A stretch of 41,462 bases of DNA. Source: Fructilactobacillus sanfranciscensis DSM 20451 (GTDB lineage Bacteria; Bacillota; Bacilli; Lactobacillales; Lactobacillaceae). Position 1 is the first letter of the stretch, and the number at the start of each line of letters is the position of its first letter. The notes beneath the pieces were generated by a model. That model was not told where the DNA came from and made no database searches. It saw nothing but the letters and a program-made list of their open reading frames with translations. Shown here piece by piece: positions 23,425 through 29,058 of this stretch. The stretch lies in NCBI RefSeq assembly GCF_001436035.1, contig NZ_AYYM01000007.1, forward strand, positions 11,159 through 52,620, given 5' to 3'. A program made the translations under genes and the position numbers.

Positions 23425-23453
23425 AACACTCATACTTGGTATGGGTGTTTTTT
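23425..23453 (+). terminator. rpsI terminator
   Basis: An 11-bp stem AACACTCATAC/GTATGGGTGTT with a TTG loop and T-run. It overlaps the 5' end of the dld reading frame. Confidence 0.85.
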
Positions 23454-25108
23454 GTTTGCAAAAAATATTCCTAATTACTTCTAAATCACGTTCTGAAAAA
23501 TATCGTGAAGGATATCGTTCCGGTCATGGTGACGCCTTAGCAGTAATCCGTCCAAAGACCTTAATTGAACTATGGAAAGTTTTACAAATTGTCCATCAAG
23601 CTGGTTTGATTGTGATTATGCAAGCTGCCAACACCGGATTAACAGGAGGATCCGTTCCTAACGATAATAGTTATGATCGTGATGTGGTAGTCATTAATAC
23701 TTTAAGAATGAAAGGGATTCAATTAATTGACGATAACAAACAAGTAATCGTATTCCCTGGAACAACTTTACATGGGTTAGAAACAAAACTTGATAAAGTT
23801 GATCGTAACCCACACTCTGTCATTGGTTCATCAACAATTGGGGCAAGTGTCGTCGGTGGAGTAAACAATAATTCTGGCGGTGCTTTAGTTCAACGTGGAC
23901 CAGCTTACACAGAGTTAGCTCTTTATGCTCAAGTTGATAAAAATAATCAATTACATCTAGTCAATCATTTAGGTGTTGATTTAGGAACCACACCTGAAGA
24001 GATTTTAACTAATTTGGAAAATCATAATTATAGTAGTCAAGACGTTCATTATAGTGAAGAACGAGTTGGACACAATCGTAATTATGAAAGCCGTGTTCGT
24101 AATGTTGATGCTAGTACGCCAACTCGTTACAATGCTGATCCGCGAGAACTATATGAAGTTTCTGGTTCTGCCGGTAAACTAGTTACGTTTGCAGTCCGTT
24201 TAGATACTTATCCTAAGCCTAAAGAAGAAAAGGTCTTTTACATTGGAACTAATGATCCGGATGTTTTGGAAAAATTAAGACGGCATATTTTAACGAAGTT
24301 TAAATACCTTCCCGTTTCTGGTGAATACATGCACCGTGAAGCTTATGACTTAGCGAAAAAATATGGTAAAGATAGTTTAATGGTAATTGATGATATCGGA
24401 ACCAAACCATTACCATTCTTATTTAATGCCAGAGCTGCTAGTGAAAGAATCTTACGGCATATTCCTACCTTTAAACCATATTTCGTTGATCGTATGTTAC
24501 AAAATATGAGTAAGATTTTCCCTGACCAATTGCCTAAACGGATGGAAGAGTTCCGGGACAAATATCAACACTATCTTCAATTAAAAGTTGATAATCAAGG
24601 AATTAAAGAAGCACAAGATTATTTACAAGAGTTTTTCAAAGATAACGAAGGTGGCTACTTTGAATGTACCCCTAAAGAAGCTAAAGTTGCTGCAACGCAT
24701 CGTTACGTAACAGCTGCTGTTCCAATTCGTTATGCAGAAACTCACCAAAAAGATGATATTCAAATTTTACCTTTGGATATTGCTTTACCACGAAATGAAG
24801 AAGACTGGTTCGAAATTTTACCTAAAGAAATTGATGATAAAATTAAATACAAACTTTACTATGGACACTTCTTGGATCACGTTATGCATCAAGATTACAT
24901 CTTGAAAAAAGGTGTTGATCCTCATGAATTGAAACAAGAAATGTTAAAAATTTTAGATAAACGTGGTGCTCGTTATCCTGCTGAACATAATGTAGGACAC
25001 TTATATCATGCTCCTGAAAGTTTAGTTAAACATTACAAAGAATGTGATCCAACAAATATGTTCAATCCTGGAATTGGATTAACTTCGACGAAGAGGGATT
25101 GGAAATAG
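23441..25108 (+). CDS. dld: Quinone-dependent D-lactate dehydrogenase (FAD), 5' end apparently lost
   Basis: Peripheral membrane flavoenzyme oxidising D-lactate to pyruvate with electrons to quinone. From LITSKSRSEKYREGYRSG onward it aligns closely with E. coli Dld: PCMH-type FAD segment MQAANTGLTGGSVPN, HSVIGSSTIGASVVGG, the C-terminal Dld-specific domain, and GARYPAEHNVGHLYHAPE with NPGIG. It has 555 residues against about 570; the first ~15-20 family residues are replaced by MGVFCLQKIF. The only ATG (23441) lies inside the rpsI terminator, no RBS precedes it, and no other start codon exists upstream in frame. The body is intact over 540 codons. It may be silent, translated weakly from TTG 23456, or a recent pseudogene. 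Confidence 0.85.
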   Translation: MGVFCLQKIFLITSKSRSEKYREGYRSGHGDALAVIRPKTLIELWKVLQIVHQAGLIVIMQAANTGLTGGSVPNDNSYDRDVVVINTLRMKGIQLIDDNKQVIVFPGTTLHGLETKLDKVDRNPHSVIGSSTIGASVVGGVNNNSGGALVQRGPAYTELALYAQVDKNNQLHLVNHLGVDLGTTPEEILTNLENHNYSSQDVHYSEERVGHNRNYESRVRNVDASTPTRYNADPRELYEVSGSAGKLVTFAVRLDTYPKPKEEKVFYIGTNDPDVLEKLRRHILTKFKYLPVSGEYMHREAYDLAKKYGKDSLMVIDDIGTKPLPFLFNARAASERILRHIPTFKPYFVDRMLQNMSKIFPDQLPKRMEEFRDKYQHYLQLKVDNQGIKEAQDYLQEFFKDNEGGYFECTPKEAKVAATHRYVTAAVPIRYAETHQKDDIQILPLDIALPRNEEDWFEILPKEIDDKIKYKLYYGHFLDHVMHQDYILKKGVDPHELKQEMLKILDKRGARYPAEHNVGHLYHAPESLVKHYKECDPTNMFNPGIGLTSTKRDWK

Positions 25109-25160
25109 GTGAAGGTCTGATTAATTCTAATAAAAACATTCTGTACATTAATCATTATTA

Positions 25161-25187
25161 AACTCGTACTTAGTATGAGTTATTATT
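25161..25187 (+). terminator. Weak hairpin after dld, similar to the rpsI terminator
   Basis: A 9-bp stem AACTCGTAC/GTATGAGTT with a TTA loop, followed by the T-rich ATTATT. Over 29 nt it matches the rpsI terminator at 23 positions, so dld is flanked by two related hairpins. Confidence 0.55.
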
Positions 25188-25195
25188 GTTATAAT
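25187..25195 (+). promoter_or_regulatory. Extended -10 promoter candidate
   Basis: TGTTATAAT (25187-25195), consensus TGN-TATAAT, with no good -35 box. It could drive the small ORF and the RHH-SPFH genes downstream. Confidence 0.4.
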
Positions 25196-25230
25196 AATAA
25201 ATATTTTATTTAAGTAATTTTATATTTATT

Positions 25231-25362
25231 ATGAGGAGAATTAATTGTGATTGGAAGTCTGGAAAATTTATTGATATAGGAGCAAAAGAAGCATTAAGAC
25301 AAGTCTTTTCAAATCTAGATGAAGAGGAACATTTTAATAGATATTGGCGGCCTGAAGATTAA
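25231..25362 (+). CDS. 43-residue orphan ORF, possibly a gene fragment
   Basis: Encodes MRRINCDWKSGKFID, then IGAKEALRQVFSNLDEEEHF and NRYWRPED: hydrophilic, with amphipathic helix character. No RBS precedes its ATG. A better RBS-start pair (GAGGAG, then GTG 25247) enters another frame and stops after ten codons. It may therefore be the remnant of a frameshifted gene. I do not recognise a family. Confidence 0.3.
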   Translation: MRRINCDWKSGKFIDIGAKEALRQVFSNLDEEEHFNRYWRPED

Positions 25363-25374
25363 AAAAGGAAAAAT

Positions 25375-25707
25375 ATGGAAAAAATTGCCATCACTCTCAA
25401 TCCCCAAAATGCCCACACCCTTCAACTATTAGCAAACGCCAAAGGTATCACTGTGGCTGCCGAAATTGAGTCAATCATCGCCCAACATTTTGCAAAACTC
25501 GAACTAATCGGGATGCCGGAATTAGTTGGCACCGAAATTAGCGGCAACCAACTCCAAGCGGATGGAATTGTAAAACTTAACGGTGTGTTATACTTTTACC
25601 AAATCGTTGGTAGCACATTAAAGTCAAAAGCGACTTATGTAGTAGCTGATGTGACCGACCAAAAAGTTTATTTAGTCGATAAAGGAGAGTACCATGCTCG
25701 GAATTAA
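25375..25707 (+). CDS. Unknown protein with an RHH-like N-terminus, coupled to an SPFH gene
   Basis: It is 110 residues. Residues 3-42 (KIAITLNPQNAHTLQLLANA, GITVAAEIESIIAQHF) have the strand-helix-helix pattern of ribbon-helix-helix DNA-binding or antitoxin domains: alternating hydrophobic strand, then two helices with a G-T/V turn. Residues 45-110 look like a small beta domain (GIVKLNGVLYFYQIVG, ATYVVADVTDQKVYLVD). I do not know this architecture. RBS AAGGA. Its end overlaps the SPFH start by 14 nt, so the two are probably translated together. The early codons are unusually C-rich compared with neighbours. Confidence 0.7.
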   Translation: MEKIAITLNPQNAHTLQLLANAKGITVAAEIESIIAQHFAKLELIGMPELVGTEISGNQLQADGIVKLNGVLYFYQIVGSTLKSKATYVVADVTDQKVYLVDKGEYHARN

Positions 25708-26542
25708 AATTGTGCAACAAAACAACGTTGGATTAGTAACCTTTTTAGGAAAATATTCTCGTCAATTTGAGAGTGGAATTCATTTTTATATTCCATTTAT
25801 AGAACACGTCAGTACGGTTAGCCTTCAATCACAACCGTTAGCTTTACCTGTTCAAACTGGGATTACCAAAGATAATGCCAGTATTAGTATTCAAGTTACC
25901 TTAAACTACCGAATTACTAATGCTGAACGCTATACCTTTGGAAACAGTAATTCAATTCAATCAATGGCCTACCAAGTTAGTGGAACGCTTCGTGACATTA
26001 TCGGAAGTATGGATCTTGATGAAGTTTTAAATTCTACTGATAAAATTAACACTAAATTAATGCAAAACATTGGTGATTTAACTAACACTTATGGAGTCAT
26101 GATTGAACGGGTTCAAATCGGTAACTTAACACCTTCTAAAGGGGTTAGTGAAGCGATGGAAAATCAAATTACTGCATCTAAAAATAAGCAAGCAACCATT
26201 TCACAAGCCCAAGGGAATGCTGAACAAATTCGCTTAAATACTGAAGCACAAAATGCCGCTAAAATTGCAACTGCCAAAGCTGATAAACAACAAACTGAAA
26301 TTCATGCTGATGCACAAGCATACGCCACAAAGATTCAAGCCGATGCCGACAAATATCGAATTGCTGAATTACAAGCTGCCTATGCCGCTGCTGATCCTAA
26401 GTATTTCAATGCGCAATCAATTGATGCCATCCGTGCTGCCGGGACAGACGGTAACTTAATTATTGTGCCAAATGAAAGCAATGGTTTATACGGTCAATTA
26501 GCTGCTTTTAGTAAGATGCAAAAAACCGACACAACCAAATAA
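25694..26542 (+). CDS. SPFH/band-7 (stomatin-like) protein without membrane anchor
   Basis: It is 282 residues. The SPFH domain spans about 5-170 (NNVGLVTFLGKYSRQFESGI, HFYIPFIEHVSTV, then SGTLRDIIGSMDLDEVL and RVQIGNLTPSKGV). An Ala/Gln/Lys-rich coiled coil at about 155-235 follows, then a C-terminal segment with FNAQSIDAIRA. Bacterial relatives normally begin with a transmembrane helix; here the protein starts directly with the SPFH domain and has none. RBS AAAGGAGAG lies within the preceding gene. SPFH proteins scaffold membrane microdomains or proteases; the role here is unknown. Confidence 0.85.
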   Translation: MLGIKIVQQNNVGLVTFLGKYSRQFESGIHFYIPFIEHVSTVSLQSQPLALPVQTGITKDNASISIQVTLNYRITNAERYTFGNSNSIQSMAYQVSGTLRDIIGSMDLDEVLNSTDKINTKLMQNIGDLTNTYGVMIERVQIGNLTPSKGVSEAMENQITASKNKQATISQAQGNAEQIRLNTEAQNAAKIATAKADKQQTEIHADAQAYATKIQADADKYRIAELQAAYAAADPKYFNAQSIDAIRAAGTDGNLIIVPNESNGLYGQLAAFSKMQKTDTTK

Positions 26543-26552
26543 GTGGGAAAAA

Positions 26553-26870
26553 ATGAACTTTAAGCAAATTCATCACATTGCTATCATCGGGCCTGATTAC
26601 GCTGAATCACTGCATTTTTACCGTGACGTTTTAGGCTTTGAAGTGATTCGCGAACATCAGCGTCCTGACAAAGATGACGTCAAAATTGATTTAAAAATCA
26701 ATGAGACAACTGAGTTAGAGTTATTTATTAAACCAGACGTACCCCGACGAGTTAATTGTCCTGAAGCACAAGGTGTCGAGGTTGAAGCCTTGCGTACGGA
26801 TGACTATACTGGCGAAAAGATGGTCTTTTTCTATGACCCAGATGGTTTACCAATTGAATTACATGAATAA
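26553..26870 (+). pseudogene. VOC/glyoxalase-like protein with internal in-frame deletion
   Basis: Resembles the YaeR-like VOC family (about 126 residues), but has 105. The N-terminal beta-alpha-beta module (IHHIAIIGPDYAESLHFYRD, then DLKINETTELELFIKP) is intact, and so is the end (TGEKMVFFYDPDGLPIELHE). Between PEA and QGVEVE the expected ~20 residues containing the G-L-R-H-L-A-F strand are absent, including one of the metal-ligand histidines. The reading frame is preserved. It is likely inactive, unless it represents a genuinely shortened variant. Confidence 0.65.
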
Positions 26871-27966: not shown

Positions 27967-29058
27967 ATGAATACAAATTTATTAAATCCCGGAGCAACCT
28001 TGGGAGTAATTGGTGATAATCTTAATGGCTGTCAAATTATGAAAGAGGCCAAAAGTTTAGGACTAAAAGTTGGCGTATTAACAACTTTGTCTGAAAGTAA
28101 AATTAAACAATATGCCGATTTTGTAGTTGTCGGCAGTTTCAATGATCGTTCAGTTTTAAAGGATTTTGCCGAACATTGTGATGTAGTAACTTATGCGACT
28201 GATTCAATTGATTTTGCTTCACTAAAATACATGGCCCAGTTTACTAAAATTCCTCAAGGTACTGATTTACTAGAAATTGTTCAAGATCGTGCCTTAGAAC
28301 ATGCCTTCTTTGATCAACTGAACGTGAACAGTGTTCCTTATATGACAGTTGTCGGCATTGATGATTTATACCAAGCTAGCGATTCAATTGGTTATCCAGC
28401 TGTTTTAAAACCAATTTTAAAAACTGGAACCCAACAACAAGAGTTCAAAATTGGTACCAAAAACGAAATTGATTTAACCAAACCGCTTTTTGGTCATGGA
28501 ACTTTTATTCTAGAATCAGATATTAACTATTTGCACAAGTTTTTAGTAATTGCGACTCGAGATCAAAATGGGAAATTAGTTCAGTTCCCAGTACTTTAAT
28601 ATCATGGTGCGGAAAATGGTACGAAAGTGGTTATTAACAGTGAGTTTACCGATATGAAAGATGCTCTTGCTGAAATGAAACGCATTACTAATGAAGTTGC
28701 AAAAAACATTAATTATGTTGGAACGTTTGAATTAAGTTTTGGGTTTGATAAGAATGAAACATTATATGTTTGTGGCATTCGACCAACGACCACTTCTTTC
28801 GGGTTTATTTTCAATCTAGGAATGAACATTAACCAATATCGCGAACACTTGCGAGCTTTAAGTAACTTACCGTTACCAGAAGTACAAAAATATACGGATG
28901 TGATTTTGAAGTCCTTTATTCCAGAACAACTTCCTGCGATTTTAAAAGCTCGTGCTAGTGAACCGGATTGGCAATTAAACTTTGAACATCAATGTATTTT
29001 GATTCCAACTGACACGGTTATTAAGACGGAAGCCAGTTTTAATCAATATAACTTATAA
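27967..29058 (+). pseudogene. purK: PurK-like ATP-grasp protein interrupted by one in-frame stop
   Basis: Resembles N5-carboxyaminoimidazole ribonucleotide synthase of de novo purine synthesis. The first part (211 codons) has PGATLGVIGDN, SIGYPAVLKPI and the HKFLVIATRDQNGKLVQFPV strand. A TAA at 28597-28599 then interrupts, and the same frame resumes at once (YHGAENGTKVVINSEF) and runs to 29058, including YVGTFELSF and REHLRALSNLPLP. Normal PurK signatures are eroded: GGGQLGRM is GDNLNGCQIM, the GYDGKGQ loop is missing, and NEIAPRPHNSGH is CGIRPTTTSFGF. The copy was probably non-catalytic before the nonsense change. RBS GAGGGG. A terminator follows. Confidence 0.8.

Follow-up and report, generated by a model that had tools for sequence, protein, structure and literature searches.

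In a 41,462-nucleotide stretch of Fructilactobacillus sanfranciscensis DSM 20451 DNA (hereafter the window), a small gene overlapping an SPFH gene encodes, by homology, a soluble form of NfeD in which a ribbon-helix-helix (RHH) takes the position of the membrane helices. We computed the domain homologies, the gene pairing, the absence of the membrane anchor, and a putative operator together with its link to a conserved arginine. Taken as a whole, these results are best explained by a family of SPFH-coupled autorepressors that would form soluble assemblies of the SPFH/NfeD type and whose DNA recognition would have decayed or changed in Fructilactobacillus, a reading that we consider probable, with real room for doubt.

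The gene pair in the window

Both genes lie on the forward strand. The first, rhh-ob (25375..25707), is an ORF for a 110-aa protein with an RHH and a putative NfeD-type OB domain, whose SPFH-adjacent homologues occur in 22 genera. The second, spfh (25694..26542), encodes a 282-aa SPFH/Band_7 protein that lacks an N-terminal membrane anchor, as judged from the ORF, Pfam, and hydrophobicity. An earlier note on this DNA had described a 110-residue protein that overlaps a band-7 protein by 14 nt within 25375-26542, as we also find, and reading of the sequence places a likely Shine-Dalgarno element of spfh, AAAGGAG, inside rhh-ob (25681..25687, forward strand). The spfh product covers the whole Pfam Band_7 model (1e-36), with no other match to this model in the genome; the best NCBIfam model for the product is HflK, below that model's cut-off. 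We detected no hydrophobic segment in it (highest 19-residue Kyte-Doolittle mean, 0.94), and because the stop-to-stop frame of spfh extends over only 288 aa, an anchor encoded further upstream is impossible, which bears out the earlier description of a band-7 protein without a membrane helix. The small protein has no hydrophobic segment either. It yielded nothing significant in Pfam, NCBIfam, and PHROGs, the sole named relative found for it comes from F. lindneri (83% identity), and AlphaFold2 on a two-sequence alignment gave a pLDDT of 38.6.

An RHH joined to a divergent NfeD-type OB domain

The N-terminal RHH segment of the small protein (residues ~1-43; 25375..25503, forward strand) was assigned by alignment with relatives above the Pfam Arc/HicB cut-off, and the same alignment places the ribbon residues of the window protein at I4-A5-I6-T7-L8. 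At E<=0.01, 33 of 49 RHH-OB members matched the HicB family in Pfam and 24 of 49 matched Arc, the window protein matching none, and an RHH-OB profile found the Arc repressor in the PDB at 7.3e-6. The RHH-like N-terminus proposed earlier is hence of the Arc/HicB type by homology and clear in the aligned relatives, while it goes undetected in the window protein itself.

The C-terminal segment (residues ~46-104; 25510..25686, forward strand) can be connected to canonical NfeD by a chain of profiles that passes through bare-OB proteins. One bare-OB relative (L094) exceeds the cut-off of the Pfam NfeD C-terminal domain (PF01957; 35.3 bits vs 29.1), and NfeD matches at E<=0.01 were obtained for 9 of 31 bare-OB and 4 of 49 RHH-OB members. 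The four best PDB matches of the bare-OB profile were 2k5h 'Conserved protein' (4.8e-4), 3wwv 'Stomatin operon partner protein' (0.015), 2exd 'nfeD short homolog' (0.035), and YbbJ (0.27), followed by two unrelated chains (0.82 and 1.7). Upon HMM-HMM comparison, the OB part of RHH-OB was colinear with 30 canonical NfeD domains at a score of 20.0 and an E of 8e-4, with a probability of only 10%, and ten column shuffles used as a control scored <=3.8; the probability was 98.9% for bare OB against the OB part of RHH-OB and 49% (E 2.6e-5) for bare OB against canonical NfeD.

On these profile matches, we identify the beta domain as a divergent version of the C-terminal (OB) domain of NfeD, the part known to bind SPFH proteins. 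The window protein is linked to it through the chain with no direct match, PF01957 being present at the family level and not detected in the window protein alone. The RHH and the NfeD assignments of the window protein accordingly both rest on its relatives. Most known NfeD homologues are described with three N-terminal hydrophobic stretches (PMC2636767), and because the RHH would replace these stretches, the window protein is not a classical NfeD. The "small beta domain" of the earlier note was thus correct as far as it went and missed the identity of the domain, and the note's contrast between an NfeD-type partner and a DNA-binding partner was mistaken, as the beta domain itself is of the NfeD OB type by homology.

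Distribution of the family and its pairing with SPFH

A search with the single window sequence reached 6 of 201 Lactobacillaceae genomes; restriction of the small gene to one genus was ruled out by a profile built from 11 proteins with RHH and beta domain, which at E<=0.001 matched 111 of the 201 genomes and 30 of 40 genera, a count that includes beta-only and some weak RHH-only matches. SPFH matches occurred in 165 of the 201 genomes, and we classified 151 SPFH loci from the 150 of these listed with coordinates, leaving the pseudogene locus L120 out of the counts. The genes upstream of SPFH in other genera (~106-150 aa as called) have an obvious RHH N-terminus followed by the same beta domain. 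Among these SPFH loci, RHH-OB was found at 80, in 22 Lactobacillaceae genera (79 assigned by profile, and L079 by eye, its Pfam RHH matches lying below cut-off), so that the gene pair is conserved well beyond this strain and the NfeD trait of the SPFH-adjacent gene is present across these pairs. The two genes overlap or lie <=105 nt apart at 76 of the 80 loci and 352-415 nt apart at four g19 loci, and there is usually one locus per genome, across many genera. RHH-OB accompanies 77 of the 87 anchorless SPFH loci (bare OB at 8, none found at 2) and only 3 of the 63 anchored ones (bare OB at 40, another OB fusion at 5, none found at 15). An anchor and an RHH seldom occur together, and their correlated evolution is only suggested, as the independent-pairs test was not significant (p 0.5-1, few pairs). 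The earlier suggestion of an undescribed module held: in the open-access full-text literature we found no description of an SPFH protein paired with an RHH (or Arc family) protein, nor of a link between SPFH and DNA binding in Lactobacillaceae.

No full-model match was found outside Lactobacillaceae in samples of the order (295 genomes) and the class (299 genomes). Nearly all matches outside the family are limited to the RHH; a few are longer (reaching at most position 88), and most of these carry internal stop codons. By this sampling, RHH-OB seems restricted to Lactobacillaceae, and bare-OB proteins beside anchored SPFH are present in a second family of the order as well (L258, L259). We found no support for horizontal transfer or a phage source, the profile search of viral contigs returning nothing and plasmid records giving no match to the window protein as query.

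Several pairs show additional features. At L025 and L093, two of the four widely spaced g19 loci, a basic ORF of 105-112 aa lies between rhh-ob and spfh; at g5 loci L078, L130, and L143, the SPFH protein has a basic N-terminal extension; at g9/g23 loci L026, L027, and L031, a membrane-plus-basic ORF lies just 3' of the pair; and at L079, a membrane helix and a linker precede an SPFH protein otherwise of the anchorless type.

A predicted operator that tracks an RHH arginine

Upstream alignments by eye revealed palindromes, TGATATCA, often repeated at 11 bp, directly before rhh-ob in 8 of 9 genera and absent in the genus of the window. Counted in the same loci in which the motif had been found by eye, an exact TGATATCA lies near the start at 55 of 80 RHH-OB loci, compared to 0 of 48 bare-OB loci, 0 of 5 loci with other fusions, and 22 of 1478 other sequence windows of RHH-OB loci. 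With <=1 mismatch, the mean number of copies was 1.52 for RHH-OB, 0.08 for bare-OB, 0 for other fusions, and 0.175 for background windows; single copies with one mismatch are not rare. Neighbouring sites are spaced by 11 bp in 43 of 53 cases. A scan of the 201 whole genomes with the tandem pattern TGATATCANNNTGATATCA (<=1 mismatch) gave matches in 42 genomes (the reversed pattern in 2); of 51 sites, 37, from 33 genomes, precede rhh-ob by 8-64 nt, and 14 are elsewhere.

The occurrence of the site follows the identity of a single RHH residue. A TGATATCA site (<=1 mismatch) is present at 63 of 64 loci with an arginine at the position of Arc Arg13, as against 1 of 16 loci that lack it. Among six independent pairs on supported branches, 5.7 on average agreed in direction and none ran opposite (sign test, median p 0.031, range 0.031-0.0625). 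We take the conserved arginine to be the counterpart of Arc Arg13 and assume that the ribbon and helix B make contacts as in Arc. Under autoregulation, TGATATCAnnnTGATATCA would be bound by the RHH-OB of arginine-keeping relatives.

A derived form in the window clade

The window protein has T7 where 38 of 49 family members have R and A28 where 37 of 49 have N, and in the window and five close relatives, both the RHH arginine and the helix-B asparagine are replaced. None of these six clade members has an exact or tandem TGATATCA site, and L010 has a single one-mismatch copy. In the intergenic region upstream of rhh-ob (25109..25374, forward strand), the 150 nt next to the gene are free of TGATATCA, in contrast to most other genera. 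The residues and the tandem operator that elsewhere in the family speak for DNA binding, which the earlier note had thought possible, are thus missing in the window strain and its closest clade.

The 5' end of the gene is itself unusual. The first 17 codons of rhh-ob (25375..25428, forward strand) and the DNA upstream are unlike F. lindneri, with 52% nucleotide identity giving way to 92% at a sharp break near 25428. This divergence goes together with the odd base composition noticed earlier at the start of the pair, which our measurements corroborate: the GC skew of 25375-25500 is -0.382, and 0 of 657 windows of equal length are as low. Between the window and F. lindneri, pN is 0.03 in the OB part and 0.40 in the ribbon and helix A, and within the clade the hydrophobic ribbon pattern is kept while the contact residues vary. 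From the pN contrast and the missing arginine, asparagine, and site, we conclude from sequence comparison that in the window clade the putative SPFH-binding part appears to be under selection and DNA recognition to be lost or changed. As the arginine and the tandem operator are gone and the first 17 codons differ, the RHH may only dimerise here. Hence, autoregulation is not supported for the window strain, which lacks both arginine and tandem operator, and its form is derived and probably non-regulating.

Proposed mechanism and alternative explanations

In the mechanism that we propose, an RHH of the Arc/HicB type would serve for dimerisation and DNA binding, and the NfeD-type OB domain joined to it would bind the SPFH protein made from the next, overlapping gene. 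Such binding is expected by analogy with S. aureus, whose NfeD touches the flotillin FloA through its OB domain (PMC11222466). Because the SPFH protein has no membrane anchor, the pair would form a soluble SPFH/NfeD assembly. In most Lactobacillaceae with the pair, the RHH would occupy the tandem TGATATCA palindromes that overlie the promoter of its own gene, which would repress the operon; free RHH-OB would be the repressing form, and OB-SPFH binding would modulate repression according to SPFH supply or assembly state, as for antitoxins with their toxins. In Fructilactobacillus, with DNA recognition decayed or changed, the dimeric RHH would remain as a connector between OB domains bound to SPFH. 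QmcA assembles as 26 copies (PMC12624060), and RHH pairs of the family could ring such a cage. We infer OB-SPFH binding within the pair, repression, feedback by SPFH, and loss of DNA binding in the window strain.

The most serious competitor, which we find doubtful, is a purely structural role, where the RHH would serve only to dimerise, joining OB domains around the SPFH ring and making up for the bracing by the missing anchor, any DNA binding being incidental. It draws on the prevalence of anchorless SPFH at RHH-OB loci (77 of 80). In the SPFH tree (150 rows, a quick LG+G4 inference with long branches), g7, which combines anchor and RHH-OB, is sister to g2/g39, which have bare OB and an anchor called in 7 of 8 rows, and this lineage is nested in the anchorless clade; from the nested position, the anchor seems to have been regained before the RHH was lost. 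The hydrophobic ribbon pattern maintained in the window clade fits a dimeriser as well. Against this, a specific operator tracks the contact arginine across lineages, eight anchorless loci have bare OB and no RHH, and at other loci a MazE/AbrB or HTH-like domain is fused instead.

The other OB fusions comprise a MazE/AbrB-OB protein beside an anchored SPFH (L098:1538-1921; Pfam 4.9e-10), an HTH-like-OB protein at L076 and L077 (Pfam HTH_59 at only 0.066; PDB match 'AM32' at 4.6e-7), and a fusion with a helical-looking segment and no match at L099 and L186.

We judge it improbable that the TGATATCA array is a promoter element or the site of another regulator, next to an ordinary SPFH/NfeD operon. 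The motif was found post hoc, and TGATATCAT is one base off the extended -10 element, and owing to this resemblance one copy may act as such a promoter element. Against this stand the palindromy and the tandem repetition at 11 bp, the lack of any exact copy at the 48 bare-OB loci, and the joint absence of site and RHH arginine.

We regard as very unlikely a tethering role in which RHH-OB would fasten SPFH cages to numerous places on the chromosome and connect DNA with the quality control of proteins or membranes. The idea has its appeal in the presence of DNA-binding and SPFH-binding domains in one predicted protein and in a cage that, without an anchor, would be free of the membrane. Yet in the whole-genome scan the tandem site occurs only 0 to 3 times per genome and mostly at the promoter of rhh-ob itself (37 of 51). 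Least credible of all is a toxin-antitoxin-like pair with the SPFH protein as the target of an RHH-OB antitoxin, for although the gene order, the close spacing or overlap, the N-terminal RHH or MazE-type DNA-binding domain ahead of a C-terminal partner-binding domain, and the operator at the own promoter all resemble such systems, the locus is usually single in many genera, plasmid records gave no match to the window protein, and SPFH proteins are not known to be toxins.

Some tandem sites away from the pair deserve mention. In g5 (L283, L284, L285, L286, and L287, each at 2001-2019), off-locus tandem sites precede, by 28-49 nt, ORFs whose products of ~190-200 aa look mutually related; the L287 copy is split over two ORFs, and two that were scanned had no Pfam match. 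RHH-OB may thus have these ORFs as additional targets. Two further genes each have a single tandem site with one mismatch before them, namely ftsH at a distance of 35 nt (L291:2001-2019, genome G167) and a gene for a CdaA-type diadenylate cyclase at 19 nt (L296:2001-2019, G056). FtsH is a known SPFH partner elsewhere; both sites may be due to chance.

Relation to known systems

Conserved NfeD/SPFH operons (PMC2636767) such as NfeD1a-SPFH1a, YuaF-YuaG, YbbJ-QmcA, and S. aureus NfeD-FloA share with the window a small gene beside the SPFH gene and an OB-type domain, whereas the window pair has a predicted RHH for the membrane stretches and an SPFH protein without anchor. With Arc/HicB-type repressors, RHH-OB shares the RHH sequence family and, in most relatives, tandem palindromes at its own promoter; it differs by its NfeD-type OB C-terminus and, in the window protein, by the absence of the conserved arginine and asparagine. 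Like the window SPFH protein, B. subtilis YdjI is predicted to have no membrane anchor, and it needs partners for localisation (PMC8581546), but these are the membrane proteins YdjG/H, and PspA, the available part of that source mentioning no RHH-OB partner. Only 2 of 12 SPFH subfamilies, SPFH8 and SPFH9, are soluble by prediction and lack a transmembrane region as the window protein does; compared by description, they differ in that the same survey reports a neighbouring NfeD only for the SPFH1, 2, and 5 subgroups (PMC2636767). An L. crispatus SPFH protein has been described with a membrane helix (PMC8010061), as in our anchored group.

What is new here is an NfeD/SPFH pair whose membrane part appears exchanged for a DNA-binding domain, with a predicted operator in most pairs. 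SPFH proteins have mostly been studied as membrane-microdomain scaffolds. We tentatively raise the possibility, which we would not call likely, that Lactobacillaceae swapped the SPFH/NfeD anchor for a DNA-binding domain, giving a soluble SPFH assembly with a repressor as its NfeD subunit, the occupancy of the operator serving as a readout of SPFH assembly or of client load. If so, the RHH, MazE/AbrB, and (on weaker evidence) HTH domains on the same OB would mean that coupling of SPFH to transcription arose repeatedly. The family offers a natural experiment in which anchor and DNA-binding domain, the latter with its predicted operator, seem to replace each other, and it makes two questions testable: what role SPFH/NfeD assemblies have when not anchored in the membrane, and whether the state of SPFH is read out by the cell for gene control.

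Genes around the pair

A gene for a D-lactate dehydrogenase of the membrane-binding type (23441-25108) lies between rpsI and the pair in the window; at L009, rpsI immediately precedes the pair, with no such gene between. A 43-aa ORF without a Pfam match (25231-25362) is located close upstream of the pair. Downstream, a VOC-family protein of the SMU1112c/YaeR type (26553-26870) looks internally shortened: it has 105 aa vs 130 aa in L009, and its match to the NCBIfam model is divided into two stretches and falls short of the cut-off (129.9 of 140 bits). Further on, an ATP-grasp (PurK-like) protein (27967-29058) extends over two ORFs (27967-28599 and 28627-29058, the scan covering the first) and is perhaps a split, broken gene.
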